DNA of 64,000 nt from Heliocidaris erythrogramma (taxonomy: Eukaryota > Echinodermata > Echinoidea > Camarodonta > Echinometridae). Location of the stretch: assembly GCA_025617745.1 (NCBI GenBank), contig CM046853.1, forward strand, positions 35,224,625-35,288,624. The letters are read 5' to 3'. A program made the translations under genes and the position numbers. Within the stretch, counting starts at the first letter, position 1, and each line of letters starts with the position of its first letter. Below the pieces are notes generated by a model. It saw only the letters and a program-made list of their open reading frames with translations, searched no databases and was not told the origin of the DNA. Of the stretch, positions 1 through 64,000 are shown one piece after another.

Positions 1-104
1 AGCCAGGAGCCAGCAGCTATAAAATATCCAAAACAACAATGAGACATTTTGGGCTGTATTTATAATAGCTAGCAAACACCAAGCAATTGCTTTTTCTAGG
101 CTTT

Positions 105-333
105 GCTAGAATATCTTTATCAATTTCAACATAGGAGCAATGGCGGGAAATAAGCAAAAGTAGCAATTGCTTGAACGATAAGTAAAACGGTCGTCAAGTC
201 AGAAACAACAGACTTTTAGCTCGCTAGAATATCTTTATCAATTTCAACATAAGACCAATGGGCCGAATAAGTAAAAGTAGCGATTGCTTGAATGATAAGA
301 AGACAGTCGTCAAGTTAGAAACAATTATTGCTA
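105..333 (+). repeat. Tandem duplication, ~118-bp unit, two copies
   Basis: The segment starting GCTAGAATATCTTTATCAAT at 105 restarts at 223, and a third start (GCTAGACTC) appears at about 331. The two units are clearly homologous but differ at several positions and small indels, so the event is older than the A/B duplication. The same pair occurs in copy B at 50244-50472. Confidence 0.9.
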
Positions 334-568
334 GACTCTTGCTATGTCAGGTACAGCGGCTGTGATTTTGGACATTTGAAATATTTAACCCTCATGTCAG
401 CTCAGGCTGCTGCTATATGCGATTTCTTTCTTCAATAATGACTTGTGCACCAAGGTGTACGTACAGTGACAAGTTTTTCTCCCTACTTACTTTCCAAAGT
501 GGAAAAAAAGAAATTGGTTGATTCAATTTACAGTTTCAATTGTATAACAGTAATGAAGACAAGTATCA

Positions 569-700
569 GGGGAACGTTTCATCAAGCGTTTTGGCAGCGA
601 TTTTTACCGACAACTGTTATAAGCTACTGAAATCCTTGCATCTGATTGGTTGAGAGCAAATTTGTCGTTAAAAATCACCGACAAAACACTTGATGAAACA
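569..700. mobile_element. Palindromic MITE-like element, family GGGAGCGTTTCATC (degraded copy)
   Basis: The left end reads GGGGAACGTTTCATCAAGCG and the right end reads ACACTTGATGAAACA, which is its approximate reverse complement. The core contains CCGACAACTGTTATAAGCTAC. A better-preserved relative lies at 42866-43002 and the duplicate copy at 50708-50839. There is no coding capacity, so it would be a non-autonomous element. Confidence 0.75.
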
Positions 701-1695
701 AGTAACCAGTAACATACAGTCTAACTACAAGGAGGAGATCATGCAAAACAACTTTTTAAAATGCTTCAAGTTGATGATGACAGCAAATTCTTCATTTTCA
801 AGTAAGAATTTTTAAAATCTGAATAAAAATATGAGCAATTTCTTATCATGGGAATCAAGTACTAGAAAGAAAAGAGGTTGTGTATTGCTTCTTCTTGCAA
901 GCAATTGCTTGATTGGAATATCTGAAGATGCAAGAAAAGGCAGTTTCTAGGTTTGTACTAGTTTGATAAATTCGGCCCACCCAGTGTTTCAATGTTTTAA
1001 GGTCTAATACAAAAAAAAACACAAAAACATCTTCTTTCATTTGAAGAAACAAATTGTTTACAGTATCATTCTGTCTCGTACTTTCCATAACGTTGACGGT
1101 TTTGTTGCCCGTTAAGCACTAGAAATTCACGAACAAACCGTTCATAATATACTAAATTTCAAATGCTCTATGAAGCATTTTTACCCCTGAAAACGTATGG
1201 TATTATTGGAAATAAATGGAAATAAAACTGATTAACTTTTGTTTAAAGGACAATCCAAATATTGTAATGAATACGTGACAATCGATTCACTCAATTGCCG
1301 ATTTGAAATTCGCATAGATGTAGTGATCTCATTTTTAACATTCATAACTTTCTTGTTCTTTTTCCGATTTCTTTCAAGCTATTACCTGTTTCTCTTCTTT
1401 TTCTGCTTTCACACAAATTAGCTTGTTACAAAGGTAGGATAGCCCGATAAGATATATGTGGTTAGCTGAAAAATTTTGTACAAAAATACGAACCCTGATG
1501 ACTGATATATCTTGTAAACACACATCGTTTGATAGCTCACGATTCAAATTCATGTTTCATGAAATTTAAGAGATGAAAATATTTTCATTCAATTAAGTGA
1601 ACATATTATTACATCCATCTTAAGTATTGTTGGAAAGAATTATAGACTCGTGATCCAAGCAAAAATGATCGCGGACTATTGTGTTGAAGTTTCGT
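701..1695. other. AT-rich DNA without recognisable features
   Basis: No exon, RNA gene or element was recognised. Short open frames here are what an AT-rich sequence gives by chance and have no splice context. Confidence 0.5.
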
Positions 1696-2046
1696 GAGGG
1701 GAGAGAGTGGAAGAGGGTGGAAAGAGATAGAAAGACAGCCTAGAAAGAAAGAAAGAAAGAAAGGAAGGATATGGAGGGATACAGAGGAAGAAATAGGGAA
1801 AGAATAAAAAAAATATATATAAGGAAAGAGAGACAGGGGAAAAGAGTGGGGGAGGGTGAGAGGGATAAGTGGGAGGGGAGAAAAGGAAGATGGATATAAA
1901 GGAAGATATAGGGGAAACGAGAGGGCAAAAGGAAAGGAAAAAGAGATAAGAGAGAGGGAAAGAAAGTGGACAAAAAAGGGGGAAGAGAGGGGATAAGGGA
2001 GGGCGATGAGAGAGAGAGAGACACACACACACACACAGACAGCGCT

Positions 2047-2114
<68 letters not shown>

Positions 2115-2115
2115 T
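1696..2115. repeat. Purine-rich GA/GAAA tract with a short AC run
   Basis: The plus strand is almost purely purine for about 400 bp and ends in long AG runs interrupted by an AC run near 2021-2036. In copy B (51835-52251) the AG runs differ in length by a few units. Long reverse frames rich in Ser, Leu, Phe and Pro here are artefacts of the repeat. Confidence 0.9.
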
Positions 2116-3480
2116 TGGTAGGAAGATGGGTCATGGGATTTAGACGTAGATGTTTGTCATGCTGAACGTAATCTGGCAGTTTACAATATAATGTTTCTAC
2201 CGTTGATGGGGTTGTTTCAAATAGCGATGAAGCGTCGTTCATGAATTGCCCATCTGCATGAATGACATCTAGGCAAAGGATGTGATGAACAAAAACAGCA
2301 ATCAAATATATAATCATGTATCATTTATGTATGTAAATGATGATATCATCATCTATATAATTTACTTCTCCCGATATAGTTCTATGTTAACCATTTTTTT
2401 AGAGAGATTAATAGATAAAAAAAAAAGACCGCTTAGTCCACATTCACATCTGCTAACTTAATTTGTATTGTTTGAAGATACTGAATAGACACATTGTATT
2501 TCCATTGAAAAATACTGGTATTGGACTTTTTAGTCCAAATTTCTGTTTATATACCCTCCCGTGTTTTCCCCCTCATCAGTATCGTCCCTAGATGTTGTCC
2601 CGGATGTTGTATTGCTAATTCAGCTTAAATAATACTTAGGCTTTTCAATTAGAAAAAAAGAAATGATTTCTATCTGTTTACTCCAAGTCCTTGAAAAAGT
2701 ATGGACGTTTATTTTACTTCACTTATATCCCTCTTGTGTTTAATAGCACTATACCCATACATGTTACAGTTTATTTTTCTTGTACAGTTTATGTCGCTTA
2801 AATCGATATTTTGCCTGAAAATTTTGAAAACATAGCGAAATAGAATATTTATCGATTATGTTTCAAGTTTAATAGAAATAGTATATGAAAATTATACCCA
2901 CCTCCAAAATGGTAACTAAGCCTGGCAATATATTATTTCTGTATAAACAGAAATATGAACTATAACCACGCATTTTTTTTTTGTCGAAAATGTTTTTCTA
3001 CGTTTGCTTATTTTCAGCATAATATATCCTGCCCCCTATTTTTCTTCTCTATTTTCGACTTGCTTTCTTCTTGATTGTCTGCTTCTCCTTCTTCTTTTCC
3101 TGCTCTATAACACTCTCTCTCTTAAGTCTCTTTCTCTCTCTCTCTCTTTCTCTCTGTTATTTCCTTTTAATCTTCAATTTACTCGTTTTAATTCACAATC
3201 TGGCGGGGGTTTTCAGCTTTGTCCGTGAATACAATTAAATTCTCCGTGTCTTCTAAATCATCGTACTTGCTTTTAAAATGATCCGATGATTTTCATTCGA
3301 AGCAATGAAGTCACCTTTCTTTTGCACATCGATTTCAAATCCTGCATAATCTTAATTCAAAACTAATCCGCGCGCGAAAAAAAAATAATCAAATTCAGTT
3401 GTATGCGAATGCCAACATTTTTTTATTTTGAGGCCATAACAGCGGATGAATGATTTAAAATTAAATAAAGGGGTATAATA
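2116..3480. other. AT-rich DNA; short CT microsatellite near 3111-3160
   Basis: No gene or element is recognised apart from a CT-rich stretch at about 3111-3160. A small A-T hairpin with arms GGACTTTTTAGTCC lies near 2523. Confidence 0.5.
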
Positions 3481-3604
3481 CAATCCTCTACAGTTGTTGT
3501 ATGAAATGTCTTGATACTCGACTGACCTTGTTAGCAGTTATGATGTGGTCTCTAGAGTTCGCTGACTCACGCGCTTCATCTCTAGCTTTGTCTTCCACTA
3601 TCAT

Positions 3605-3617
3605 GTTACCTAGCAAC
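3605..3617. promoter_or_regulatory. Candidate RFX X-box (GTTACCTAGCAAC)
   Basis: GTTACC-T-AGCAAC fits the inverted-repeat X-box pattern bound by RFX factors, with a one-base spacer. It lies in a locally CpG-containing stretch (about 3540-3690). It is also present, unchanged, in copy B at 53741-53753. A 13-bp match can occur by chance, and no ciliary gene is visible nearby. Confidence 0.3.
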
Positions 3618-3978
3618 GTATCGTCCGCGCATATCTTATTGCTTTATGATCGCGATTTCACGAAACGTAATCGTGTCATTTGCGGTTTTTCTCCGAGTAT
3701 GTGTATGAGTTGTGTGTGTGTGTAAGTGTGAATGTATACCGTGTGCGTACGTATCTTCAACTTTATATGGGATCAAGAAATTTTTTTAAAGTAGAACACT
3801 AATGATTTTAAATATTGGCTTAATACTTATTATTGCATAGATGGCATAAATTAAACAAGGTTATCCAAATTTAAAGCTTGGAAACATTTGAATTAATGAT
3901 TATTATCAATTATAAAACGGTAAAATACAGCCCCCGATATAGCAGCTGAAAAGCTCCTTGAACGCTGCTGAGATGTGT

Positions 3979-4531
3979 GACGACACAAGAGGGGCGAGTC
4001 CTGTCTAAGCAGACGATGTCCCATAACATTATACACATTTTCAGTGCCTGTTTTGTCATCTCCTCTTCACTTATTTCTCTTACTTGACTAGCGTCAGTCT
4101 TAATGTTAGTCTGTTGCCTCACTCTTAACTTCGTGTATGGTATTATTTTGATGAAAAATGCAGCGTTAAAAAAATAAAGGAATCAGTCACTTGTAAACAA
4201 AATAAGACGCCATTGTATTTTCAGCTGCTTGCACCGGGGCATGTTCGGCGTTTCAAGAGGGAACGAATACCATCCAGCTATTATTCGCAGGGCTTTTCAA
4301 TTTGAAAATGGGGTTTATTTCATTGATCATTGACCCTTCTCCTGTGTATTTACAATCAAACGGTTTTAGTTATCAGAATCAGTTCACTTTCCCTTTTAGA
4401 ATGGTGTGAAATAAGGTCATGTTTAAATGTACCAAACTCTTTATAATTTGATAAATAATTGCATTGCAATTACGTTCATTCATTATAGGACGTCGTCTGC
4501 TTAAGCAGGATCGATCCCTCGTATGACGACA
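3979..4531. mobile_element. Inverted-repeat-flanked element, ~550 bp
   Basis: The segment 3979-4027 contains TCTAAGCAGACGATGTCC, and 4483-4531 contains its inverted relative GGACGTCGTCTGCTTAAGCA. Similarity extends outward through an AGGG and GACGAC portion and inward through ATAA, giving imperfect arms of about 45-49 bp. The interior carries no convincing coding sequence. The structure suggests an old non-autonomous DNA transposon, but target duplications are not clear. The copy B counterpart is 54115-54667. Confidence 0.55.
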
Positions 4532-7320
4532 TCAAAACATCGCTATATTTCTGGCGAATCCTCGGATATTCCACATGCTGAGAAGAGCTTTTATTTATGT
4601 TGTTTTTATAATCATCATATACGCAGTTGACATAAAACTTATACGATTGCCATCTGTAAGCTTCCCAATTTCTAGTGATACATTAATTGCCATATTTGTG
4701 ATTTTCTTGAGATTTTTCTTGAGATCAAAGTGTAAAGATGATAAAAATTTACCTCACACGACGAAGCAGACAATATGCATACTATATGGTATAAGAATGA
4801 ACAGAATGCTGTTATCACACGTTCACAAATGAATTTTTATATTATAAAGGAATGACAAATCTTTAAAAACAGATTTCATCTTGGTATCGTTACTACAAAG
4901 ACATTTTTACTTTTTACAATGACTGACATTACTTTTTAAGTCTCCTTTCAGTGCATTGGATTTAGGTTTCGACCCTTTATTTCACTCATTTTCAGGCAAA
5001 GGGAAATGAACCTCTTTTATTGTTTTTTAAATTTACAGTTCGCTAAACTTTACGTTGAATTTTTTTAAAAATTCTTTTGGCATTAATTGCGAAAGTTATT
5101 TTCATATCTGGGCACTTTTGACCGCAGATTAAACCCGTCCGTTCTACTAGTGCATGCAGTCTTCTCACGTGTAAAACCAATGTTTTTGGGGTTTTTTTTT
5201 CAGTGGTATAAAACTTACCTTCGTTTTATTTCATAAGACAATTTTATAATCACAACCATGCGTAAGATCGATTTAATATAAATATTTGTTGTTATAAAAG
5301 ACAAAAAAAAGTTTGATAAATCAGCATCACGTGTATACTCGTTCTTTCATAATATACCACACGATAATTAGAAATAAAACTCAACAAAACCAAAAATGTT
5401 GTTTAGTCTGCGATCTAGGTTTCGGAATCAGGTCTGAAACTCGTTTTATGAAGTATCCACGGACAAAATATCTTCAGACTTATTGCAGTCCAAATTTCTT
5501 TCCTTTTTTTAGCGTGAAATTGATCTCAATTTTCTTTAGGAACGAGGTGCGTCTATTTTGTCTAAATTCGTGTTGTTGATGTTTTGTCTTATTTGGATCA
5601 AGGTGAGTAATTCCTTTTTCATGGGTTTCATGACAATGACTTTGTTATTTGTCGGATAAAACTAGAATAAAAGATCAAGACTTAAATAGATCCGTTAGAA
5701 TGATTACACAAAATTTAAGAAAAAATGTCAAACGACCGAATATCAAAATGATATTATTTATGATATTATATTTCGTTTGAAACGAATGTCAGTGGGTTCG
5801 TCAAAGAAAGACGCTTATTTGGAAACGAAACCGTTTAGCAATACTATCCATAATTATATCAATATACAAATTGGCGACATTCTCGAAGACATTGTTCGGG
5901 TAGGAAAATATTGTCAAGTTACCCTAATTCCATATCGCATTATATTCTTACATTGAAATGATAGAATTAGTATAAATACATTAGTTGAGTTTAAGAATGT
6001 GTCGCGCTTTCGACGGTTCTATAATGATTCATACATGAGGTTGTTATCGAAATACTTTTAACAGTTGTGTGTAATCAAACTACAAATTACACGAGTTAAA
6101 ATCAAACAAAGAACTTATGTCAGTTTATGTAATTTTAGGCAGGCCTGGATCTTGATCTGACGCTGATGTCGGTAATTATAATGAATGAGGAAGAGAAGAA
6201 TTTACCATTATGCAGTGATCTATTTTCTATGTACGTCGAGAAGGAAATCTTTTAAAATGACAAATGGGTGCCAAAACCAAAACCTTCTATTCTCGCAACG
6301 CACACATGCGCGTTAGATCAAACATTCATTTCCTCAAAGGTGATGTTCCTTGCTGTATTCCCAGTGCGATCGATCCAAAATGAGTATTACGTCCTCTACG
6401 TTGATCAAAGCCAATCACTGATGCCAGTGCTTCGTTGTAATCACGCGGCTCCTGCCATTGAGGTACAGCCAGTTTGAATCTCAGCTCTTTTTCATCGCAA
6501 TTACAAAAATAAACAATCTTTATTAAATTTGATTGAAATCTTAACTTCTCAAATGCTATTAATTCTATTCTTTTCTGGGAATGATGGTAACAAAAAGGAA
6601 TGCATTATAAGTTTATCAGAAATTGAAAAGGAATCCTAGACTTTTTAGCTTACGTTACCCCCCCCCCCCACACACACACACAAACGAACTATGCATACCT
6701 CTCTCCTCCTCATATTGTAGTTCACAGTTTCCCTCTTTATCGCGTTCACGTCCACATGTGTAAAGTTTTTGATGATAATTGGCATCGCCTACGTATATAA
6801 CTGCGTGAGCTGATCGGGTGATTATCATCATTTCACATACCGATTATATTAGATTATTATCACATTTTCAAATAGTTCTGTAAACCCAGCAGGTCTCGAG
6901 GTACGCTTAAAATGACAAGTATGTCTATGGCGGTCATGCTTCCAATAATGATTCTAAAACGTTTTGCGAGTAATGGTTTCATCAGGGAGCTGCACGTTTA
7001 TTCTATAACAACTTTCTCGTTGACGTGTGAAAGTGAGCGATTTGAGAACAAAAGATTTACCGCTATATACCAAAATCAAAATCAAAGATAATTCAAGTAC
7101 ATACATTTATTTCACTTCATAGCTATAGACATGCATAAAATGAATGTTTTGTCCGTTTCAAAACTCAAACATAAAATATTCAATTTACTCACATTGACGT
7201 AAAATATGTGAAAATCAGCTGAAGAAAGAAAGAAATACACTGATCTTGTTCATATAGTTTCAATTATGATAAAATAATTATAATACAGTTCAGGAAAATC
7301 CAATGCATAACAGGGGTAAA
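4532..7320. other. AT-rich DNA; poly-C/AC microsatellite at 6660-6682
   Basis: No gene is recognised. The insertion point of the 563 bp found only in copy B lies between 6614 and 6615. A short C run followed by AC repeats is at 6660-6682. Confidence 0.5.
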
Positions 7321-7485
7321 AAAGAAGAAGAAGAAGAAGAAGAAGAACAAGAACAAGAAGAAGAAGAAGAAGAAGAAGAAGGTGAAGAAGAAGAAGAAGG
7401 AAGAAGAAGAAGAAGAAGAAGAAGAAGTAGAAGAAGATGATGAAGAAGAAGAAAATGAAGAAGAACAAGAAGAAGAAGGAGAAAA
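7321..7485. repeat. GAA trinucleotide microsatellite
   Basis: This is a long, interrupted AAG/GAA tract with some GAACAA and GATGAA variants. It is the same tract in copy B at 58029-58180 but shorter by a few triplets. Reverse frames rich in Phe, Leu or Ser are repeat artefacts. It abuts the left target duplication of the next element. Confidence 0.95.
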
Positions 7486-7491
7486 GCTTAG

Positions 7492-8259
7492 GGGCAATTC
7501 CATGGTTAGTAACGTTACACTTTATCAAATTTTATTATTTTTGATACAGATAATTCAATAGCTTTTTCATCTGAAGTCCTACTCTTGCAAATATAATATA
7601 TTTACCTAACAAAGGTCTACAGTACATAAAGAAATCAAAAGTAAATGAATAAAATAAGAGCTGTAATGAGAACGTTTGATGACGGTAAGTAACGTTACAA
7701 AAAAAGGACATGAGAAACAAACCAAAGTTTTTGAAAAAAATATTCCTCCTTATTGTATTGTACCTCAAATTGGAGCCATATCAGTATTACTTCTTAAATG
7801 ATGACAAATGTTTCCCCAAATTGCTTAGAGATTGTATCTCTCAGTTTGTTTAAGTAGAGCCCAAAACCTTGGTTAGTAACGTTACGGTTAGTCACGTTAC
7901 AGTTTGTCCAGTACTACATATTTGAGATTTTTATACCTTTTCAACAACTTATTATTGCCTACTTTCTTTTAAATTGGTGTGACTAAATGCCCTACAAATT
8001 ATCTAATTGAAAAATTCACAAAATATGCAGTATATTTCTGTCCATGACTAAAAAACTGTGTGAAGTCCCATCTATCTAAATTTGTGTATGGTTCGGATTC
8101 TTCTATAAGGGCCATATTAAATAAAATTGTTTTTGGTGAGTATGAAACCCCTTTGTAAAAACAATTCCTGTATTTATTTAAACCCCCAAAATCGACCTGA
8201 ATTTGAGAAAGAGCAAAAATAAAGTTTGGCCTGATGTCCACTTAATCATGGAATTGCCC
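7492..8259. mobile_element. Non-autonomous DNA transposon, 768 bp, 13-bp TIR GGGCAATTCCATG, TSD TTAG
   Basis: The left end is GGGCAATTCCATG (7492-7504) and the right end is CATGGAATTGCCC (8247-8259), a perfect 13-bp terminal inverted repeat. TTAG stands immediately outside both ends (7488-7491 and 8260-8263), consistent with a 4-bp target-site duplication. The palindrome GTAACGTTAC, usually within GTTAGTAACGTTAC, recurs at 7509-7518, 7689-7698 and 7876-7885, with a variant at 7891-7900. Such repeats near an end often bind transposase. Short reverse frames exist, but nothing resembles a transposase, so it would be mobilised in trans. The superfamily is not assigned. Confidence 0.8.
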
Positions 8260-8588
8260 TTAGAAATATAGTTAACTCGGTGTTTATTCTTCTTGCTGTC
8301 ACAATCATGGCTGATTAGTTTCGCGTTACAGATTAAAAAGATAAACAAACAGGAGGCCTGTATTTAAAACTGATGCACCTTATTTATTATAAAGATTTGT
8401 ATTGCCCTATATAGAAATTGAATATCATACAGTTGTAGCTGTTCCCTTTATATACGATTTAAGGACAATATAAAGTTTCTACGTTATGTATTTCTGTACA
8501 CTGAATTTCATCATGCTTTCTTTTTTTTTAAATCTCATATAGGTAAACAGTACATTATTCTCTTTATATTGAATGATTCAGCAGAATA

Positions 8589-8633
<45 letters not shown>

Positions 8634-8719
8634 CCTTTCATCACATTTGCATGTATTATTCTTTAAATATAAATATATAATATATATAGAATAATACATG
8701 CAACTGTGATGAAAGGGAA
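8589..8719. repeat. TA microsatellite joined to a 31-bp-arm hairpin
   Basis: A TA run (about 8589-8630) leads into the arm TTCCCTTTCATCACATTTGC... (8631-8661). After a 27-base AT-rich loop comes its reverse complement (8689-8719), with only one mismatch in 31. The arms continue as ATATAT on both outer sides. In copy B (59311-59400) one extra mismatch is present and the TA run is much shorter. It may be a MITE end pair or a foldback element; no target duplication is evident. Confidence 0.85.
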
Positions 8720-9179
8720 TATATTGAAAAATATCTTCAAATAAAAGGTGAAACTAGAATTTCAAATAGGAAAATCATTTGAAAATCCATTTACACAATA
8801 AATCAATACCCGTAAAATTTATATAAGTGTCCATGTGACGTGTATTTTGTTCGTTTGTTTATGTGTTGTTTTTTTTTTTTAATGAGAAGAGGTTAAAAAG
8901 TTAGGAAGTTACATCATTGCATTGTGTTGTTAATTACAAAACAGACGAGAAGAAAATACAATGCCAGCTTTATGTCATTATCTTGCGGGTTTCATCATTA
9001 TTTTGTGTGTGTGTGTGTGGTGAGGGTGTGTGCGTGTGCGTGTGTTTTGTTTTGATTTCCTGCGGAATGGGGTTAATGAACTTGGGGGCAATCAATTGTG
9101 ATATAATAATATTAATGAATTATGATATTATATAGATGTATTAACACATATATTATATAAGTTTCAAAATGGTTGTAAA

Positions 9180-10141
9180 AAGAAACACTGGAATGCTTGC
9201 TGAAATCAGGTGGCCATTTGGTCGGGCGATATCTTTTCTCAGATCCTCCGAGAACAGGTGACGTCACACTACTAGGGCTTCTATCTAATGAATATTCGGT
9301 GTCAGCTGGCTGGGTGGATACAATGCATGCTCGCTCGATCGGCCGTGCAGATTCTTGGTGAATTGCACTCAACAGGCGAAAGTGAGGGTTGGCGAGATCC
9401 GCAAAAAAAGCTTTGATGCTTGGCGGAGAAGACGGCGGCTCAGATCATGCACTCGTAAATCATCATTCAGTCAACGCACGCGCACAGTTCACACCACCAC
9501 AAAACGTCTCAGCATCGCAACTGATTTATTGTCATCAGTGTGTGTTGTGTGCTCCGCACCGCATTAATAGCCGTAGATATGAGCACATAGCTAAGCACGG
9601 CCATTTCTTTTTTGTTTGTTTTTATTTTTGACCGCATTTCACAGAAATGATGCCGAAAGAAATGATGCACGCATGCTTGTTTATACACCTTGGCGCTTGT
9701 ACCAGCTCATAGTCACCATCGATATTCTCAGTTGTCACCGACGGGAAACTCTCCCGGCAGTGTGACGAGAGTTACACCTCCCGCACTTTGAACCGAAGAA
9801 GGTGCACAAAATTCGCTAGCACAGCACTCCATGACACATGCTCTCGTTTAAAGACTTTTTACAAATATTTGGGATCAATCATGCCATCAATTTTTTGATG
9901 TGATGATAGCACTGAACGACAACAATCTATGATATTTTCTCCTTACATTCCTTCGCAGAAGAACTGCTTGCAGCTCGCCGTATATCTCGGTTGAACAAAC
10001 TCCGGGTTCTACGGCCGATCATCTCAGCAGTCTTAATCCTCTTACCGCAATCTTGAGGCCATCATCAGTCTCTTGAAAACGCACAAGTACAGTTCTTTCA
10101 CCGACGAAAATTGACGTAAATCTGCTGTCTACTACTGCTAA
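9180..10141 (+). promoter_or_regulatory. CpG-richer block, probable promoter and 5' leader
   Basis: Base composition changes sharply here from AT-rich to balanced, with many CpG dinucleotides, up to the open frame that ends at the splice donor at 10396. It holds a perfect CRE at 9259-9266 and a TTATATAAG sequence near 9153. Small frames within it are unlikely to be conserved protein, because an A homopolymer at 9403-9409 (7 bases) has 8 bases in copy B and shifts the frame. The exact transcription start cannot be seen. Confidence 0.5.
9259..9266. promoter_or_regulatory. Perfect CRE palindrome TGACGTCA
   Basis: This is a full cAMP-response-element palindrome, bound by CREB/ATF family bZIP factors. 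It lies inside the CpG-richer block about 0.9 kb upstream of the coding exon and is conserved in copy B at 59927-59934. Confidence 0.5.
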
Positions 10142-10396
10142 GTAGGAGACAGCGTGAGAGAGCATTTTTCAACCATTCCGCCGACTGCAGCAGTAAAACT
10201 GAAGCGGGAGCAGAGAGACACCAGCGGGACAGAGATCCTGTCGTCTGCCCCTTCGCATCACCTGGAAGTAGCCACCGTGGGCAGCTACGCTGAGCTAGAG
10301 GCAGGGGACCCTCAGGCTTTGGACGAGCCCAGTAGGAAGCGACTTAAAATGTCCACCGTTAGCATGGATTCGGGCAGCACCACTGGGGAAGAAGAG
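10142..10396 (+). CDS. Putative first coding exon of an unrecognised gene, donor GAG|GTAAGA
   Basis: The frame is open from a stop at 10139-10141 to a strong splice donor, GAAGAAGAG|GTAAGA, with the exon ending at 10396 on a codon boundary. The translation is protein-like and not low-complexity: it includes AVKLKREQRDTSG, SSAPSHHLEVATVGSYAELE and the basic stretch SRKRLK, then MSTVSMDSGSTTGEEE. No ATG lies upstream in frame. Either translation starts at the ATG at 10349 (A at -3) or at 10364, giving a 16- or 11-residue first coding exon, or an upstream exon is spliced in, for example after the AG of GACTGCAG near 10188. The basic SRKRLK and the acidic, Ser/Thr-rich end would suit a nuclear regulatory protein, but I do not recognise the family. 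The coding sequence matches copy B throughout. No following exon was found before the gap, so the first intron would be very long. Confidence 0.55.
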
Positions 10397-13356: not shown

Positions 13357-13560
13357 CACGCGATTCTGTCTTGTTGATTTCATGGTTCGCGCGTTGAACG
13401 AATGAAGCTTGCGCTCGCGTAGGCTTTCAATACCGGCGACTTCCGCATTAGATAACACCATGTAAAAAAAAATCAAAAAAAAAAAAAAATCGGCGCCCTT
13501 TCTTCGTGGAGTTGTCTGTTTTGAGGTCAGCTAGAGAGAACCCGCCGGAGGGCACGAAAA
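12780..13560. promoter_or_regulatory. CpG-richer non-coding block, possibly regulatory
   Basis: Composition rises above the AT-rich surroundings, with GCGCGC, CCTCGCGCG and GCGCCAC segments. The part shared with copy B (to 13356) shows very few differences, fewer than the preceding 2 kb. No convincing exon is present: frames are short and lack splice context. An intronic enhancer or alternative promoter is possible, but this is inference only. Confidence 0.25.
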
Positions 13561-17620: not shown

Positions 17621-17649
17621 AACGAAGAAGCTTGATGGGAGGAAATTGG

Positions 17650-46159: not shown

Positions 46160-46173
46160 ATATATATATACGC

Positions 46174-46920: not shown

Positions 46921-46924
46921 TTAT

Positions 46925-50139: not shown

Positions 50140-50707
50140 AGCCAGGAGCCAGCAGCTATAAAATATCCAAAACAACAATGAGACATTTTGGGCTGTATTT
50201 ATAATAGCTAGCAAACACCAAGCAATTGCTTTTTCTAGGCTTTGCTAGAATATCTTTATCAATTTCAACATAGGAGCAATGGCGGGAAATAAGCAAAAGT
50301 AGCAATTGCTTGAACGATAAGTAAAACGGTCGTCAAGTCAGAAACAACAGACTTTTAGCTCGCTAGAATATCTTTATCAATTTCAACATAAGACCAATGG
50401 GCCGAATAAGTAAAAGTAGCGATTGCTTGAATGATAAGAAGACAGTCGTCAAGTTAGAAACAATTATTGCTAGACTCTTGCTATGTCAGGTACAGCGGCT
50501 GTGATTTTGGACATTTGAAATATTTAACCCTCATGTCAGCTCAGGCTGCTGCTATATGCGATTTCTTTCTTCAATAATGACTTGTGCACCAAGGTGTACG
50601 TACAGTGACAAGTTTTTCTCCCTACTTACTTTCCAAAGTGGAAAAAAAGAAATTGGTTGATTCAATTTACAGTTTCAATTGTATAACAGTAATGAAGACA
50701 AGTATCA

Positions 50708-50839
50708 GGGGAACGTTTCATCAAGCGTTTTGGCAGCGATTTTTACCGACAACTGTTATAAGCTACTGAAATCCTTGCATCTGATTGGTTGAGAGCAAAT
50801 TTGTCGTTAAAAATCACCGACAAAACACTTGATGAAACA
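50708..50839. mobile_element. Palindromic MITE-like element (copy B counterpart of 569-700)
   Basis: This is the duplicated version of the element at 569-700, with the same ends and core. It is not an independent insertion, because the surrounding sequence is also duplicated. Confidence 0.75.
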
Positions 50840-51834
50840 AGTAACCAGTAACATACAGTCTAACTACAAGGAGGAGATCATGCAAAACAACTTTTTAAAA
50901 TGCTTCAAGTTGATGATGACAGCAAATTCTTCATTTTCAAGTAAGAATTTTTAAAATCTGAATAAAAATATGAGCAATTTCTTATCATGGGAATCAAGTA
51001 CTAGAAAGAAAAGAGGTTGTGTATTGCTTCTTCTTGCAAGCAATTGCTTGATTGGAATATCTGAAGATGCAAGAAAAGGCAGTTTCTAGGTTTGTACTAG
51101 TTTGATAAATTCGGCCCACCCAGTGTTTCAATGTTTTAAGGTCTAATACAAAAAAAAACACAAAAACATCTTCTTTCATTTGAAGAAACAAATTGTTTAC
51201 AGTATCATTCTGTCTCGTACTTTCCATAACGTTGACGGTTTTGTTGCCCGTTAAGCACTAGAAATTCACGAACAAACCGTTCATAATATACTAAATTTCA
51301 AATGCTCTATGAAGCATTTTTACCCCTGAAAACGTATGGTATTATTGGAAATAAATGGAAATAAAACTGATTAACTTTTGTTTAAAGGACAATCCAAATA
51401 TTGTAATGAATACGTGACAATCGATTCACTAAATTGCCGATTTGAAATTCGCATAGATGTAGTGATCTCATTTTTAACATTCATAACTTTCTTGTTCTTT
51501 TTCCGATTTCTTTCAAGCTATTACCTGTTTCTCTTCTTTTTCTGCTTTCACACAAATTAGCTTGTTACAAAGGTAGGATAGCCCGATAAGATATATGTGG
51601 TTAGCTGAAAAATTTTGTACAAAAATACGAACCCTGATGACTGATATATCTTGTAAACACACATCGTTTGATAGCTCACGATTCAAATTCATGTTTCATG
51701 AAATTTAAGAGATGAAAATATTTTCATTCAATTAAGTGAACATATTATTACATCCATCTTAAGTATTGTTGGAAAGAATTATAGACTCGTGATCCAAGCA
51801 AAAATGATCGCGGACTATTGTGTTGAAGTTTCGT

Positions 51835-52215
51835 GAGGGGAGAGAGTGGAAGAGGGTGGAAAGAGATAGAAAGACAGCCTAGAAAGAAAGAAAGAAAGAA
51901 AGGAAGGATATGGAGGGATACAGAGGAAGAAATAGGGAAAGAATAAAAAAAATATATATAAGGAAAGAGAGACAGGGGAAAAGAGTGGGGGAGGGTGAGA
52001 GGGATAAGTGGGAGGGGAGAAAAGGAAGATGGATATAAAGGAAGATATAGGGGAAACGAGAGGGCAAAAGGAAAGGAAAAAGAGATAAGAGAGAGGGAAA
52101 GAAAGTGGACAAAAAAGGGGGAAGAGAGGGGATAAGGGAGGGCGATGAGAGAGAGAGAGAGACACACACACACACACAGACAGCGCTAGAGAGAGAGAGA
52201 GAGAGAGAGAGTGGA

Positions 52216-52251
<36 letters not shown>
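51835..52251. repeat. Purine-rich GA tract (copy B)
   Basis: This is the counterpart of 1696-2115, with slightly different AG and AC run lengths, as expected of unstable dinucleotide repeats between two alleles or recent duplicates. Confidence 0.9.
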
Positions 52252-53740
52252 TTGGTAGGAAGATGGGTCATGGGATTTAGACGTAGATGTTTGTCATGCT
52301 GAACGTAATCTGGCAGTTTACAATATAATGTTTCTACCGTTGATGGGGTTGTTTCAAATAGCGATGAAGCGTCGTTCATGAATTGCCCATCTGCATGAAT
52401 GACATCTAGGCAAAGGATGTGATGAACAAAAACAGCAATCAAATATATAATCATGTATCATTTATGTATGTAAATGATGATATCATCATCTATATAATTT
52501 ACTTCTCCCGATATAGTTCTATGTTAACTATTTTTTTAGAGAGATTAATAGATAAAAAAAAAAGACCGCTTAGTCCACATTCACATCTGCTAACTTAATT
52601 TGTATTGTTTGAAGATACTGAATAGACACATTGTATTTCCATTGAAAAATACTGGTATTGGACTTTTTAGTCCAAATTTCTGTTTATATACCCTCCCGTG
52701 TTTTCCCCCTCATCAGTATCGTCCCTAGATGTTGTCCCGGATGTTGTATTGCTAATTCAGCTTAAATAATACTTAGGCTTTTCAATTAGAAAAAAAGAAA
52801 TGATTTCTATCTGTTTACTCCAAGTCCTTGAAAAAGTATGGACGTTTATTTTACTTCACTTATATCCCTCTTGTGTTTAATAGCACTATACCCATACATG
52901 TTACAGTTTATTTTTCTTGTACAGTTTATGTCGCTTAAATCGATATTTTGCCTGAAAATTTTGAAAACATAGCGAAATAGAATATTTATCGATTATGTTT
53001 CAAGTTTAATAGAAATAGTATATGAAAATTATACCCACCTCCAAAATGGTAACTAAGCCTGGCAATATATTATTTCTGTATAAACAGAAATATGAACTAT
53101 AACCACGCATTTTTTTTTGTCGAAAATGTTTTTCTACGTTTGCTTATTTTCAGCATAATATATCCTGCCCCCTATTTTTCTTCTCTATTTTCGACTTGCT
53201 TTCTTCTTGATTGTCTGCTTCTCCTTCTCCTTTTCCTGCTCTATAACACTCTCTCTCTTAAGTCTCTTTCTCTCTCTCTCTCTTTCTCTCTGTTATTTCC
53301 TTTTAATCTTCAATTTACTCGTTTTAATTCACAATCTGGCGGGGGTTTTCAGCTTTGTCCGTGAATACAATTAAATTCTCCGTGTCTTCTAAATCATCGT
53401 ACTTGCTTTTAAAATGATCCGATGATTTTCATTCGAAGCAATGAAGTCACCTTTCTTTTGCACATCGATTTCAAATCCTGCATAATCTTAATTCAAAACT
53501 AATCCGCGCGCGAAAAAAAAATAATCAAATTCAGTTGTATGCGAATGCCAACATTTTTTTATTTTGAGGCCATAACAGCGGATGAATGATTTAAAATTAA
53601 ATAAAGGGGTATAATACAATCCTCTACAGTTGTTGTATGAAATGTCTTGATACTCGACTGACCTTGTTAGCAGTTATGATGTGGTCTCTAGAGTTCGCTG
53701 ACTCACGCGCTTCATCTCTAGCTTTGTCTTCCACTATCAT

Positions 53741-53753
53741 GTTACCTAGCAAC
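53741..53753. promoter_or_regulatory. Candidate RFX X-box (copy B)
   Basis: This is the identical motif in the duplicated segment; see 3605-3617. Confidence 0.3.
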
Positions 53754-54114
53754 GTATCGTCCGCGCATATCTTATTGCTTTATGATCGCGATTTCACGAA
53801 ACGTAATCGTGTCATTTGCGGTTTTTCTCCGAGTATGTGTATGAGTTGTGTGTGTGTGTAAGTGTGAATGTATACCGTGTGCGTACGTATCTTCAACTTT
53901 ATATGGGATCAAGAAATTTTTTTAAAGTAGAACACTAATGATTTTAAATATTGGCTTAATACTTATTATTGCATAGATGGCATAAATTAAACAAGGTTAT
54001 CCAAATTTAAAGCTTGGAAACATTTGAATTAATGATTATTATCAATTATAAAACGGTAAAATACAGCCCCCGATATAGCAGCTGAAAAGCTCCTTGAACG
54101 CTGCTGAGATGTGT

Positions 54115-54667
54115 GACGACACAAGAGGGGCGAGTCCTGTCTAAGCAGACGATGTCCCATAACATTATACACATTTTCAGTGCCTGTTTTGTCATCTCCT
54201 CTTCACTTATTTCTCTTACTTGACTAGCGTCAGTCTTAATGTTAGTCTGTTGCCTCACTCTTAACTTCGTGTATGGTATTATTTTGATGAAAAATGCAGC
54301 GTTAAAAAAATAAAGGAATCAGTCACTTGTAAACAAAATAAGACGCCATTGTATTTTCAGCTGCTTGCACCGGGGCATGTTCGGCGTTTCAAGAGGGAAC
54401 GAATACCATCCAGCTATTATTCGCAGGGCTTTTCAATTTGAAAATGGGGTTTATTTCATTGATCATTGACCCTTCTCCTGTGTATTTACAATCAAACGGT
54501 TTTAGTTATCAGAATCAGTTCACTTTCCCTTTTAGAATGGTGTGAAATAAGGTCATGTTTAAATGTACCAAACTCTTTATAATTTGATAAATAATTGCAT
54601 TGCAATTACGTTCATTCATTATAGGACGTCGTCTGCTTAAGCAGGATCGATCCCTCGTATGACGACA
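54115..54667. mobile_element. Inverted-repeat-flanked element (copy B)
   Basis: This is the counterpart of 3979-4531, with the same arms and interior. Confidence 0.55.
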
Positions 54668-56763
54668 TCAAAACATCGCTATATTTCTGGCGAATCCTCG
54701 GATATTCCACATGCTGAGAAGAGCTTTTATTTATGTTGTTTTTATAATCATCATATACGCAGTTGACATAAAACTTATACAATTGCCATCTGTAAGCTTC
54801 CCAATTTCTAGTGATACATTAATTGCCATATTTGTGATTTTCTTGAGATTTTTTTTAAGAAATCAAAATCAAAGTGTAAAGATGATAAAAATTTACCTCA
54901 CACGACGAAGCAGACAATATGCATACTATATGGTATAAGAATGAACAGAATGCTGTTATCACACGTTCACAAATGAATTTTTATATTATAAAGGAATGAC
55001 AAATCTTTAAAAACAGATTTCATCTTGGTATCGTTACTACAAAGACATTTTTACTTTTTACAATGACTGACATTACTTTTTAAGTCTCCTTTCAGTGCAT
55101 TGGATTTAGGTTTCGACCCTTTATTTCACTCATTTTCAGGCAAAGGGAAATGAACCTCTTTTATTGTTTTTTAAATTTACAGTTCGCTAAACTTTACGTT
55201 GAATTTTTTTAAAAATTCTTTTGGCATTAATTGCGAAAGTTATTTTCATATCTGGGCACTTTTGACCGCAGATTAAACCCGTCCGTTCTACTAGTGCATG
55301 CAGTCTTCTCACGTGTAAAACCAATGTTTTTGGGGTTTTTTTTTTTTGCAGTGGTATAAAACTTACCTTCGTTTTATTTCATAAGACAATTTTATAATCA
55401 CAACCATGCGTAAGATCGATTTAATATAAATATTTGTTGTTATAAAAGAAAAAAAAAGTTTGATAAATCAGCATCACGTGTATACTCGTTCTTTCATAAT
55501 ATACCACACGATAATTAGAAATAAAACTCAACAAAACCAAAAATGTTGTTTAGTCTGCGATCTAGGTTTCGGAATCAGGTCTGAAACTCGTTTTATGAAG
55601 TATCCACGGACAAAATATCTTCAGACTTATTGCAGTCCAAATTTCTTTCCTTTTTTTTTAGCGTGAAATTGATCTCAATTTTCTTTAGGAAAGAGGTGCG
55701 TCTATTTTGTCTAAATTCGTGTTGTTGATGTTTTGTCTTATTTGGATCAAGGTGAGTAATTCCTTTTTCATGGGTTTCATGACAATGACTTTGTTATTTG
55801 TCGGATAAAACTAGAATAAAAGATCAAGACTTAAATAGATCCGTTAGAATGATTACACAAAATTTAAGAAAAAATGTCAAACGACCGAATATCAAAATGA
55901 TATTATTTATGATATTATATTTCGTTTGAAACGAATGTCAGTGGGTTCGTCAAAGAAAGACGCTTATTTGGAAACGAAACCGTTTAGCAATACTATCCAT
56001 AATTATATCAATATACAAATTGGCGACATTCTCGAAGACATTGTTCGGGTAGGAAAATATTGTCAAGTTACCCTAATTCCATATCGCATTATATTCTTAC
56101 ATTGAAATGATAGAATTAGTATAAATACATTAGTTGAGTTTAAGAATGTGTCGCGCTTTCGACGGTTCTATAATGATTCATACATGAGGTTGTTATCGAA
56201 ATACTTTTAACAGTTGTGTGTAATCAAACTACAAATTACACGAGTTAAAATCAAACAAAGAACTTATGTCAGTTTATGTAATTTTAGGCAGGCCTGGATC
56301 TTGATCTGACGCTGATGTCGGTAATTATAATGAATGAGGAAGAGAAGAATTTACCATTATGCAGTGATCTATTTTCTATGTACGTCGAGAAGGAAATCTT
56401 TTAAAATGACAAATGGGTGCCAAAACCAAAACCTTCTATTCTCGCAACGCACACATGCGCGTTAGATCAAACATTCATTTCCTCAAAGGTGATGTTCCTT
56501 GCTGTATTCCCAGTGCGATCGATCCAAAATGAGTATTACGTCCTCTACGTTGATCAAAGCCAATCACTGATGCCAGTGCTTCGTTGTAATCACGCGGCTC
56601 CTGCCATTGAGGTACAGCCAGTTTGAATCTCAGCTCTTTTTCATCGCAATTACAAAAATAAACAATCTTTATTAAATTTGATTGAAATCTTAACTTCTCA
56701 AATGCTATTAATTCTATTCTTTTCTGGGAATGATGGTAACAAAAAGGAATGCATTATAAGTTT

Positions 56764-57326
56764 GATTCGTACCATGCATGCTCTTGATAACAGTTTATGC
56801 CGGAGTTTATGCTAGAGAGGTGTAAGGCCATTGACATCGTATCCTTTTTCTTCCCTCAATTCTTTTTGTAGCGCAGCCCTCTTATTCCCATGTCTGTCTC
56901 AATTATTGTCTGCATTTCTGTATTTTTCTCGCCTTATCTTTCAAAATAATTTGGTCTTTATACCTTGCTATATACCGCATTTTTGTGATCAAGGTAAATG
57001 TCACAATGTAAATGCTTGCAAGAAAAAGTTCGCAAGAATTCATTCTGCAGTGTAAATGAGTTGGTTTACGTACTGTAATGGCAAGTATCATATTAAGAAA
57101 GAAATGTAGTGTGGTCATGTCAGTATCTAAAGATCAAAGTACGATTAGGGATCTAATTATTTGTCTCCACTCTTGTCCGTATGATTTCAATTTAGATGAT
57201 TCTTGTTTGTTTGTTCGTTCGTTCGTTTAGTTTAGTTTAGTTTGTTTAATAATTTTTGCAGTAGCAAGCTTAGAACTGTGATTGTTGTTAATTTATCAGA
57301 AAATAACAAATTGCTGTATGGTGCTT
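56764..57326. other. 563 bp present only in copy B
   Basis: Copy A joins ATAAGTTT directly to ATCAGAAATTG (6614/6615), while copy B has 563 bp between them. There are no evident terminal inverted repeats, poly-A tail or clear target duplication beyond TT. The segment contains TTATCAGAAA near 57293, matching the right flank, which favours a microhomology deletion in copy A over an insertion in copy B. Inside are short TTCG and TTTAG repeats (57211-57247) and no gene. Confidence 0.85.
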
Positions 57327-58028
57327 ATCAGAAATTGAAAAGGAATCCTAGACTTTTTAGCTTACGTTACCCCCCCCCCCCCACACACACACACAAACGA
57401 ACTATGCATACCTCTCTCCTCCTCATATTGTAGTTCACAGTTTCCCTCTTTATCGCGTTCACGTCCACATGTGTAAAGTTTTTGATGATAATTGGCATCG
57501 CCTACGTATATAACTGCGTGAGCTGATCGGGTGATTATCATCATTTCACATACCGATTATATTAGATTATTATCACATTTTCAAATAGTTCTGTAAACCC
57601 AGCAGGTCTCGAGGTACGCTTAAAATGACAAGTATGTCTATGGCGGTCATGCTTCCAATAATGATTCTAAAACGTTTTGCGAGTAATGGTTTCATCAGGG
57701 AGCTGCACGTTTATTCTATAACAACTTTCTCGTTGACGTGTGAAAGTGAGCGATTTGAGAACAAAAGATTTACCGCTATATACCAAAATCAAAATCAAAG
57801 ATAATTCAAGTACATACATTTATTTCACTTCATAGCTATAGACATGCATAAAATGAATGTTTTGTCCGTTTCAAAACTCAAACATAAAATATTCAATTTA
57901 CTCACATTGACGTAAAATATGTGAAAATCAGCTGAAGAAAGAAAGAAATACACTGATCTTGTTCATATAGTTTCAATTATGATAAAATATAATACAGTTC
58001 AGGAAAATCCAATGCATAACAGGGGTAA
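57327..58028. other. AT-rich DNA (copy B) with poly-C/AC microsatellite
   Basis: This matches 6615-7320. It starts with a C run and AC repeats at 57370-57394 and contains nothing else recognised. Confidence 0.5.
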
Positions 58029-58180
58029 AAAAGAAGAAGAAGAAGAAGAAGAAGAAGAAGAAGAAGAAGAAGAAGAAGAAGAAGGTGAAGAAGAAGAAGA
58101 AGGAAGAAGAAGAAGAAGAAGAAGAAGTAGAAGAAGATGATGAAGAAGAAGAAAATGAAGAAGAACAAGAAGAAGAAGGA
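58029..58180. repeat. GAA trinucleotide microsatellite (copy B)
   Basis: This is a shorter and more homogeneous version of 7321-7485. Confidence 0.95.
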
Positions 58181-58191
58181 GAAAAGCTTAG

Positions 58192-58963
58192 GGGCAATTC
58201 CATGGTTAGTAACGTTACACTTTATCAAATTTTATTATTTTTGATACAGATAATTCAATAGCTTTTTCATCTGAAGTCCTACTCTTGCAAATATAATATA
58301 TTTACCTAACAAAGGTCTACAGTACATAAAGAAATCAAAAGTAAATGAATAAAATAAGAGCTGTAATGAGAACGTTTGATGACGGTTAGTAACGTTACAA
58401 AAAAAGGACATGAGAAACAAACCAAAGTTTTTGAAAAAAATATTCCTCCTTATTGTATTGTACCTCAAATTGGAGCCATATCAGTATTACTTCTTAAATG
58501 ATGACAAATGTTTCCCCAAATTGCTTAGAGATTGTATCTCTCAGTTTGTTTAAGTAGAGCCCAAAACCTTGGTTAGTAACGTTACGGTTAGTCACGTTAC
58601 AGTTTGTCCAGTACTACATATTTGAGATTTTTATACCTTTTCAACAACTTATTATTGCCTACTTTCTTTTAAATTGGTGTGACTAAATGCCCTATACAAA
58701 TTATCTAATCGAAAAATTCACAAAATATGCAGTATATTTCTGTCCATGACTAAAAAACTGTGTGAAGTCCCATCTATCTAAATTTGTGTATGGTTCGGAT
58801 TCTTCTATAAGGGCCATATTAAATAAAATTGTTTTTGGTGAGTATGAAACCCCTTTGTAAAAACAATTCCTGTATTTATTTAAACCCATGCATAATCGAC
58901 CTGAATTTGAGAAAGAGCAAAAATAAAGTTTGGCCTGATGTCCACTTAATCATGGAATTGCCC
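58192..58963. mobile_element. Same 13-bp-TIR DNA transposon (copy B, 772 bp)
   Basis: This is the counterpart of 7492-8259. The ends are identical, and TTAG lies on both sides (58188-58191, 58964-58967). Small indels account for the 4-bp length difference. Confidence 0.8.
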
Positions 58964-59288
58964 TTAGAAATATAGTTTACTCGGTGTTTATTCTTCTTGC
59001 TGTCACAATCATGGCTGATTAGTTTCGCGTTACAGATTAAAAAGATAAACAAACAGGAGGCCTGTATTTAAAACTGATGCACCTTATTTATTATAAAGAT
59101 TTGTATTGCCCTATATAGAAATTGAATATCATACAGTTGTAGCTGTTCCCTTTATATACGATTTAAGGACAATATAAAGTTTCTACGTTATGTATTTCTG
59201 TACACTGAATTTCATCATGCTTTCTTTTTTTTTAAATCTCATATAGGTAAACAGTACATTATTCTCTTTATATTGAATGATTCAGCAG

Positions 59289-59400
59289 AATATATATATA
59301 TATATATATATTCCCTTTCATCACATTTGCATGTATTATTCTTTAAATATAAATATATAATAGTATATAGAATAATACATGCAACTGTTATGAAAGGGAA
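59289..59400. repeat. TA microsatellite and long-arm hairpin (copy B)
   Basis: The arms are 59311-59341 and 59370-59400, with two mismatches in 31. The preceding TA run is about half the length of that in copy A. Confidence 0.85.
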
Positions 59401-59847
59401 TATATTGAAAAATATCTTCAAATAAAATGTGAAACTAGAATTTCAAATGGGAAAATCATTTGAAAATCCATTTACACAATAAATCAATACCCGTAAAATT
59501 TATATAAGTGTCAATGTGACGTGTATTTTGTTCGTTTGTTTATGTGTTGTTTTTTTTTTAATGAGAAGAGGTTAAAAAGTTAGGAAGTTACATCATTGCA
59601 TTGTGTTGTTAATTACAAAACAGACGAGAAGAAAATACAATTCCAGCTTTATGTCGTTATCTTGCGGGTTTCATCATTATTTTGTGTGTGTGTGTGTGTG
59701 CGTGTGCGTGTGTTTTGTTTTGATTTCCTGCGGAATGGGGTTAATGAACTTGGGGGCAATCAATTGTGGTATAATAATATTAATGAATTATGATATTATA
59801 TAGATGTATTAACACATATATTATATAAGTTTCAAAATGGTTGTTAA

Positions 59848-60810
59848 AAGAAACACTGGAATGCTTGCTGAAATCAGGTGGCCAATTGGTCGGGCGATAT
59901 CTTTTCTCAGATCCTCCGAGAACAGGTGACGTCACACTACTAGGGCTTCTATCTAATGAATATTCGGTGTCAGCTGGCTGGGTGGATACAATGCATGCTC
60001 GCTCGATCGGCCGTGCAGATTCTTGGTGAATTGCACTCAACAGGCGAAAGTGAGGGTTGGCGAGATCCGCAAAAAAAAGCTTTGATGCTTGGCGGAGAAG
60101 ACGGCGGCTCAGATCATGCACTCGTAAATCATCATTCATTCAACGCACGCGCACAGTTCACACCACCACAAAACGTCTCAGCATCGCAACTGATTTATTG
60201 TCATCAGTGTGTGTTGTGTGCTCCGCACCGCATTAATAGCCGTAGATATGAGCACATAGCTAAGCACGGCCATTTCTTTTTTGTTTGTTTTTATTTTTGA
60301 CCGCATTTCACAGAAATGATGCCGAAAGAAATGATGCACGCATGCTTGTTTATACACCTTGGCGCTTGTACCAGCTCATAGTCACCATCGATATTCTCAG
60401 TTGTCACCGACGGGAAACTCTCCCGGCAGTGTGACGAGAGTTACACCTCCCGCACTTTGAACCGAAGAAGGTGCACAAAATTCGCTAGCACAGCACTCCA
60501 TGACACATGCTCTCGTTTAAAGACTTTTTACAAATATTTGGGATCAATCATGCCATCAATTTTTTGATGTGATGATAGCACTGAAAGACAACAATCTATG
60601 ATATTTTCTCCTTACATTCCTTCGCAGAAGAACTGCTTGCAGCTCGCCGTATATCTCGGTTGAACAAACTCCGGGTTCTACGGCCGATCATCTCAGCAGT
60701 CTTAATCCTCTTACCGCAATCTTGAGGCCATCATCAGTCTCTTGAAAACGCACAAGTACAGTTCTTTCACCGACGAAAATTGACGTAAATCTGCTGTCTA
60801 CTACTGCTAA
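59848..60810 (+). promoter_or_regulatory. CpG-richer block, probable promoter and 5' leader (copy B)
   Basis: This is the counterpart of 9180-10141, nearly identical, with an 8-A homopolymer at 60071-60078. If the duplication is an assembly artefact, this and copy A are the two alleles of one promoter. Confidence 0.5.
59927..59934. promoter_or_regulatory. Perfect CRE palindrome TGACGTCA (copy B)
   Basis: This is the copy B counterpart of the CRE at 9259-9266, with unchanged sequence. Confidence 0.5.
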
Positions 60811-61065
60811 GTAGGAGACAGCGTGAGAGAGCATTTTTCAACCATTCCGCCGACTGCAGCAGTAAAACTGAAGCGGGAGCAGAGAGACACCAGCGGGACA
60901 GAGATCCTGTCGTCTGCCCCTTCGCATCACCTGGAAGTAGCCACCGTGGGCAGCTACGCTGAGCTAGAGGCAGGGGACCCTCAGGCTTTGGACGAGCCCA
61001 GTAGGAAGCGACTTAAAATGTCCACCGTTAGCATGGATTCGGGCAGCACCACTGGGGAAGAAGAG
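60811..61065 (+). CDS. Putative first coding exon (copy B)
   Basis: This is the counterpart of 10142-10396. Candidate ATGs are at 61018 and 61033, and the donor follows 61065. The translation matches copy A up to the donor. The first amino-acid difference appears only beyond it, in intron sequence, as expected if the exon is under constraint. If the duplication is artefactual this is the same exon, not a paralogue. Confidence 0.55.
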
Positions 61066-64000
61066 GTAAGATATTCTTACTTTACTTGTATTTGTGTGTA
61101 TTTAATTTACCCCTTTTAATAATATTTAGAAAATGCACCCCACCCCCTTCATGTATCTGAACGCATTATTTGATGCTTGTGTGATAACTCAAAGATGACA
61201 CTTAAGAAAGTTGACGATGTTGATTATGAATATGAATATGACCGAGAATATATTCCTAACTGAGTATTACCTTTGTTGACAACATGGCAATAATATGAAT
61301 TCATTACAATTTTATTATTTGGCTAGCACTCTCCATTCATGGCAGAAAATTTGTGATCATGCTCATTTACCTCCTTGTTGAATAGCAAGTGTTTTATTTT
61401 CTCTTTCAATGCCATCTCTATATGAAACTAATTCAAAGAATAGTTTATTCATTAATCCATTTGTAATTACGGACATTATTTCATTTGGTCTTTTTATAGG
61501 TTTAAATGACACAATACAATACAAAAGTACAGCTGTTTGGTCATAAAAAATTGTGCGCGATTTAGTACAACAAAATAATTATTATCATGATTATGGGCCT
61601 GCCAATATTGGCTGAAGTTATTTCCATTTATGATAATAAGATGATTTTCATGGTATTGCATTTCATGAATAATTCCTGTACAGAAATTATGCATCCCTAG
61701 CCTTGTGTCGATTACAATCATACCGCATTGTGTGGCGGAGCTCACGGCACGTGGATAGTAGATTAGAATCTTCCTAATGCACCTGTTGTGCGTTGGTATC
61801 GTATTCATAACTCTCGGCAAATATTTGGATATCAAATATAGATACGATCGGTTTCACTCTCTATCGCCAGTTTTTAAACATGGTTTTTTTCCCAGTGAAG
61901 TAACTGGGAGAATATGAAAAGTAATGGTAATGATAACATTACAGCTGCAGCTAGATTGTTATAATGTTAATCTCTCATGCCGCTAAATGTACCTCTTTAT
62001 TTTTATGAGATGGAGATGCGCCTTTGCATGCTGGGGAAATATATTCATGCAATGCAATTATAGTCCAGTGCAAAATGTTCTCGAGGTGTTAGTTCTATTT
62101 GGACTTGCTTTATGTTATTTTGTTCTCGTCCAAAAAGTAAGGGAAATAACGATTTCTTTGTCAATGCCGTAATTCGACTCGGTGATCAATGACCGAGACG
62201 AGTAAACCATTGTTTCTATATATTCTGTCCGTTTTCTTCGCATGATATTTTGAAGGCGCAATGTATGTTTTTAGGATTATCAGACATAAATATAGAACTC
62301 CGAGTTCGTAATATCGCACATGTTTAATATTTTTCTAAGTCCCGATGGAGCTCTTGGGAGAACACGGAACTATTAGCTGTTTTCTGTTGTAGTGCTATAT
62401 TATGCTCTTGACTCAAGTTCTGAATGAAGACAAGGAAGTATGTCTGTATATGAAACTGAAGAGTTTCGAATGACATGTCTGTGAATCATCTTCACAATTT
62501 TGTCTTTGTAACAATCATTAGAGCTGCTGTTATCGCCCTTTTCATACGTGGGACTTTTCGTGTCCACTGTAGTTTGTAATGGGAAACACAATTCCATGGC
62601 CGGAGGGCAGAGAAGCCACTATTAAAAGCTGTGATCTTTTGTTGTATGGTCATTGAAGCGACGAGGTCTTAGCCGATTAGCGAAGAGGTTTAGGGAAAGT
62701 AAGAAGAAGATTCGCGCGACTGAATACATCGGTAGATATGGTACATGCAATATAGAATTTAATGGGCGATCTCGTAACAGTGTTATAGAGTGGTTTTATA
62801 CGGTGTCATTCATTGTCCACCATGTGAAAAAAAAAGACTTGAGTGAACGCGGCAACGGCTAATTAATGATAGAGAAAATTAGCGGGTCTCTCTGAATTAT
62901 CGCGAAGAAACCTCATCCACGTGGCCGTGTATGTTGCTGCATTATGCTTTTCAACTTTTTTCGCATGGGAAAACGCATCCACTCAATAGTGAAAGATAAT
63001 CAACTAATTAGTGTTTTCATAGTTCTGTTTGGGCACGATGGTGGCAGTATACGATGCGTGTTCCTGACTTTGCCAATGGCAGGCTCGGGTCGAATATCTT
63101 GCCGCTTTGCAACCCCTTTAAAAGTTTAATTTTAAAGCGGTGATTGATAAGGAAATGATGGCACGTTTTGTTTACTTATTATGTCTTGTTGTAGGCTAGG
63201 CCTAGGTATAATTAAGATGATAGAAAAAGAATAATACGATCATGAAGGATCTACTGCGATCTCAATCGTATGTCGGTACAGAATAGGTTACATTCATACC
63301 GTAAAATGATGAATAAGAACTATGGTTTATATTACAAATTGAGTGAGGACAATTTATATAGCCTTGCATCTAATTTTCCCACGTGTTTATGAATTTACAG
63401 TGCCTTAACCCTTGAGTAAATTAGGACGAATGCATCGGGATTCTCCAGCCTACGTTCGGAAAATTGCGTGCAAAGAATTGATCTTGTAAGGTACCCCTCG
63501 TCGAAATTTAACTAAGCGTCTTCTGCCGTTCCATAATCTCTCAATTTAACGCCGCCATTACCTCACCCTTTTGCCATTTTCTTGATGGACTTTTTACCAT
63601 ATGCATTTTCCAATCGCGTGCTGAAGAGGAAGAAGCATCATATTGCAGGCACTTATCAATGGCTCTTAGACGTAAATGGCAGCTACATTAGACACGATTT
63701 TTCATATAATATCCTACTTTAAAAGCGCGCTCCGGTGCTGCCGAATATCACCATCGGCATTCCCCCTTTTTGATTGGCATGCAGACCCTCCAAAGAGTGC
63801 ATAAGCCTCGCGCGTTTTTCAGGAAATTGCCTGTGTCTTCACACATTACTTCATGTCACCGTTAGCGTTTATGAGATCGAAGTCGAATCAATTCTTCACG
63901 CAGGAATTTCTTGGCGGTTTTTAAAAAGCGGTGCATTTCTTTGGAAAACACGAGTCTGTTTTGCATACCAAACAGGTTGTTTTGGCGCCACATAACTCTG
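61066..64000 (+). other. Probable intron start (copy B)
   Basis: This is the counterpart of 10397-13356, running to the window edge. No exon is recognised. Confidence 0.45.

Follow-up and report, generated by a model that had tools for sequence, protein, structure and literature searches.

The long direct repeat in the window, the 64,000-nucleotide stretch of the Heliocidaris erythrogramma genome analysed here (C1:35224625-35288624, where C1 is the contig CM046853.1), can be assigned with very high confidence to an assembly artefact, namely, a heterozygous overlap of neighbouring contigs, or heterotype false duplication of the "flanking contigs" type. This assignment is based in particular on two observations: the match ends at contig ends, at each of two gaps, and no comparable repeat is present inside the contigs. 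The assembly comprises 1.064 Gb in 26 contigs, a term that in this case includes scaffolds, as C1 holds gaps; contig 1, contig 2 and contig ends below refer to the gap-free pieces.

A self-comparison of the window reveals two colinear direct matches, 1-6614 versus 50140-56763 and 6613-13356 versus 57325-64000. When 1..13356 (the visible part of copy A) and 50140..64000 (the visible part of copy B), both on the forward strand and in the same orientation, are aligned globally, 13,225 columns are identical, 45 hold substitutions and 29 indel events are seen. The window includes one scaffold gap, of exactly 500 N (39274..39773), which lies between the two copies and places them on different contigs. 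The initial annotation had reported the near-identical match in the same orientation and the separation of the copies by a 500-N gap, both of which are confirmed by these comparisons. The coordinates it gave for a match of more than 13 kb hold as well, but they are not the true ends of the match, both being edges of the window. When flanking chromosomal sequence was added (100 kb on each side, then the right side extended by 20 kb and again by 30 kb; 314 kb examined in total), the full match was found to extend over 50 kb, from -10352 to 39273 and from 39774 to 90195 in window coordinates (49,626 and 50,422 bases, respectively; hereinafter overlap 1). Beyond the window, copy A extends 10.4 kb leftward and copy B 26.2 kb rightward. 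Within the window, the end of contig 1, with copy A, occupies 1..39273 on the forward strand, the duplicated interval starting outside at -10352 and stopping at the last base before the gap. The start of contig 2, with copy B, occupies 39774..64000 on the same strand; its first base pairs with -10352, and the portion of contig 2 within the window is wholly redundant with -10352..13356.

Over the full length of overlap 1, there are 258 substitutions in 49,361 gap-free aligned columns (0.52%; 99.48% identical, indels apart) and 114 indel events; given the number of columns and the level of identity, a chance origin of this match is not an issue. A genome search started with window positions 1000-2000, in which 40 of 1579 candidates were scored, identifies two full-length matches, at copies A and B, along with shorter hits that stem from a dispersed repeat within the query. 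The two full-length matches are compatible with a true duplication and fit it and the artefact equally. The same applies to a prediction of the initial annotation, that the interval 39774-50139 should be allelic to the DNA left of position 1. This interval does match -10352..0; the prediction is, however, non-discriminating because a real recent tandem segmental duplication, with a unit of about 50 kb and the contigs broken exactly at the unit junction, predicts the same outcome, and the match had to pass the window edge either way.

The artefact and a tandem duplication are separated by where the match stops, and it stops at contig ends, twice. Overlap 1 is flush with both edges of the gap: position 39774, the first base of contig 2, pairs with -10352, and position 39273, the last base of contig 1, pairs with 90195, the terminal 34 and 27 columns of the alignment being free of differences. 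The next gap, also of 500 N (140942-141441), is located 101 kb from the first one and is spanned by a separate match, overlap 2, between 107517..140941 and 141442..174892, which is again flush with both gap edges. Overlap 2 consists of 33,425 and 33,451 bases; among 32,617 columns, it shows 299 substitutions (0.92%), together with 115 indel events. Overlapping contig ends are therefore found at two of the two gaps in the 314 kb examined, both on one chromosome; the final 30 kb added on the right contained no third gap. A search inside the three contig pieces for matches no shorter than 1 kb and no less than 95% identical detected just two, a direct one of 1,437 bp and an inverted one of 1,315 bp, so that long near-identical repeats in this region occur only across gaps.

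A tandem duplication with contigs broken exactly at the junction would yield an identical layout, and it is well established that near-identical tandem copies can break contigs. For a real tandem duplication, however, one expects both copies, or the junction between them, in a single gap-free contig and breakpoints that are independent of the contig ends. Here, the copies lie on different contigs, and the breakpoints coincide with the contig ends to the base in both cases. Two adjacent but separate duplications, of about 50 kb and about 33 kb, would be required, both with a contig break falling exactly on the unit junction, and no such duplication is found within the contigs. Moreover, the sequence across a tandem junction would itself be the unique part and would offer no natural breakpoint. 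With the match flush with the contig ends at both gaps and nothing similar inside the contigs, a real tandem duplication was rejected. A single recent event with a unit of about 50 kb appears very unlikely, and a reading in which both matches, of about 50 kb and about 33 kb, are genuine, very recent tandem duplications lying next to each other, possibly polymorphic in copy number, with junctions that broke the assembly both times, is comparably improbable.

The kind and the distribution of the differences between the copies also bear on the origin of the repeat. The substitutions are strongly clustered. When they are counted in bins of 2 kb, the ratio of variance to mean is 4.6 for overlap 1 and 5.4 for overlap 2, compared with maxima of 2.2 and 3.2, respectively, among 2,000 random placements. 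The longest substitution-free run in overlap 1 is about 2.5 kb, with a mean spacing of 191 bases. This clustering fits a mosaic of allele ages, as two recombining alleles would show; gene conversion, as is known, can create a mosaic of divergence too and could do so between true paralogues, a point in favour of tandem duplication. More than one base is involved in 59 of the 114 indels in overlap 1 and in 74 of the 115 in overlap 2. Among the one-base indels, 22 of 55 (overlap 1) and 16 of 41 (overlap 2) are in homopolymers, so that most of the differences are not accounted for by homopolymer error. In addition, the two overlaps include large length differences of 563, 548, 378 and 241 bp.

The one-base homopolymer indels, taken on their own, are consistent with a homotype false duplication, in which one haplotype is assembled twice at a contig boundary through read errors or a branch in the assembly graph. 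The treatment of false duplications in PMC8081667 indicates that this type also yields dovetailed contig ends with a gap. According to the same account, however, the homotype boundary duplication is often about one corrected read long, versus 50 kb and 33 kb here. The differences between the copies of a homotype duplication would also be confined to read error. Overlaps of this size with 258 and 299 substitutions clustered in blocks are not attributable to read error, and neither are length differences of up to 563 bp. Assembly of the same haplotype twice was rejected on the kind and the clustering of the differences and seems extremely improbable. The differences are instead of the allelic kind, substitutions and indels beyond sequencing error, as expected of a heterotype false duplication.

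The 563-bp segment is present in copy B only (56763..57325, forward strand) and is missing from copy A at about 6613/6614, the placement being ambiguous by about a base. A genome search, in which very common words are skipped, detects this segment once at full length, in addition to a partial match of 46 bp on a different chromosome. With a single full-length copy found in such a search, a spread mobile element was rejected, and the segment looks like a presence/absence difference rather than a spread repeat. The 241-bp difference is a change in tandem repeat number, at 13667 in copy A and 64311 in copy B (outside the window), with the extra segment in copy B only.

A heterozygous overlap of contig ends could have arisen as follows. 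Contig 1 would have entered one parental haplotype from the left and stopped at 39273, whereas contig 2, with its first base at 39774, would have followed the other haplotype rightward. The shared 50-kb ends would have been too divergent for the assembler to merge and would have been left unpurged, after which the scaffolder would have placed both contigs one behind the other, separated by a gap of fixed size (500 N). Gaps of 500 N are typical of certain Hi-C scaffolders. We infer that copies A and B are two alleles of one individual, and this history of the assembly software is suggested on the same grounds; each haplotype of the chromosome most likely has the interval of about 50 kb only once. 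The proposal of the initial annotation that two haplotypes were assembled in series is strongly supported by the base-exact bounds at contig ends, the same pattern at the neighbouring gap and the lack of a comparable repeat inside the contigs. This proposal is refined in two respects: the contig ends overlap in dovetail fashion rather than forming a separate haplotig, and the overlap measures 50 kb rather than 13 kb.

This arrangement closely resembles previously described cases. In the account of the Vertebrate Genomes Project assemblies in PMC8081667, heterotype false duplications of the "flanking contigs" type (type 2) are often separated by a gap on one scaffold, the 5' side joining one haplotype and the 3' side the other. 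The present case has the same organization, with the duplicated pair split by a 500-N gap on one scaffold at two of two gaps and the match bounded by the contig ends in dovetail fashion (flush at 39273/39774 and at 140941/141442), but differs in being recognised by sequence geometry alone. The discussion of false gene gains in PMC9516828 names, as a primary characteristic, gaps that separate the members of a duplicated pair on the same scaffold. Here, too, an assembly gap separates duplicated neighbours of a single scaffold; in this case, however, no gene is named in the interval, and we make no claim of a particular false gain. Finally, the description of purge_dups in PMC7203741 covers overlaps that are kept among the primary contigs of outbred species. 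The heterozygous overlap of that description and the one reported here share the overlap of two contig ends, the allele-like divergence and the persistence of the overlap up to scaffolding, but purge_dups marks such overlaps only in conjunction with read depth below a cutoff, whereas here the comparison was between sequences.

The gene content of the window was examined as well. A candidate open frame of 85 codons (10142..10396, forward strand), picked by eye, has a GT donor-like site immediately downstream (10397), and the 500-base step in which it falls has the highest GC content in the window; it is possibly the putative first exon to which the initial annotation referred. Its counterpart in copy B (60811..61065, forward strand) is identical letter for letter over 255 bases. 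A Pfam scan of this putative exon produced no match, and a search of the PDB yielded one weak match (entry KWOCA_102, E 0.023), which was not taken as meaningful. Ten open frames were hand-picked for Pfam scans from among those listed of the 264 complexity-filtered open frames of at least 55 amino acids; nine of the ten had no match, and the remaining one had a match below its cutoff. An Rfam scan at gathering thresholds detected no matches, and a tRNA scan detected no genes. The open frames at 39774 onward and at 45224-45460 (forward strand) look, by their motif, like pieces of a non-LTR retrotransposon reverse transcriptase, and the start of contig 2 falls inside the first of these; for the second one, a Pfam scan gave no match.

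Several repeats were found in this part of the chromosome. The dispersed repeat within window positions 1000-2000 covers about 190 bases (query positions 269-459) and has many copies in the genome, the longer ones with 80-86% identity; among the 40 of 1579 candidates scored, a shorter match on the opposite strand is often present a few hundred bases away. A local tandem duplication of about 555 bp with 95% identity (20561-21667) is found in both copies of overlap 1. A long, imperfect array of the trinucleotide TGA, with about 237 units (34725-35436), has a similar counterpart in copy B (85637-86364). Some 3.5 kb to the left of overlap 1, there is a satellite-like tandem array of about 2.4 kb (-16333..-13883), which produces longer matches, but at 75-84% identity.

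The overlaps at the two gaps account for most of contig 2 (39774-140941; 101,168 bp), which shares 50,422 bp with its left neighbour and 33,425 bp with its right neighbour, that is, 83,847 bp in total, with 17,321 bp of its own. The overlap of contig ends described here almost certainly belongs to an already known class of artefact and is not a real duplication. For users of this assembly, the implication is that genes, exons and repeats located in such overlaps would be counted twice, and heterozygous sites within them could pass for differences between paralogues. If the pattern is genome-wide, the 1.064-Gb assembly would be inflated, and apparent "recent tandem duplications" across gaps in this sea urchin genome should be distrusted.
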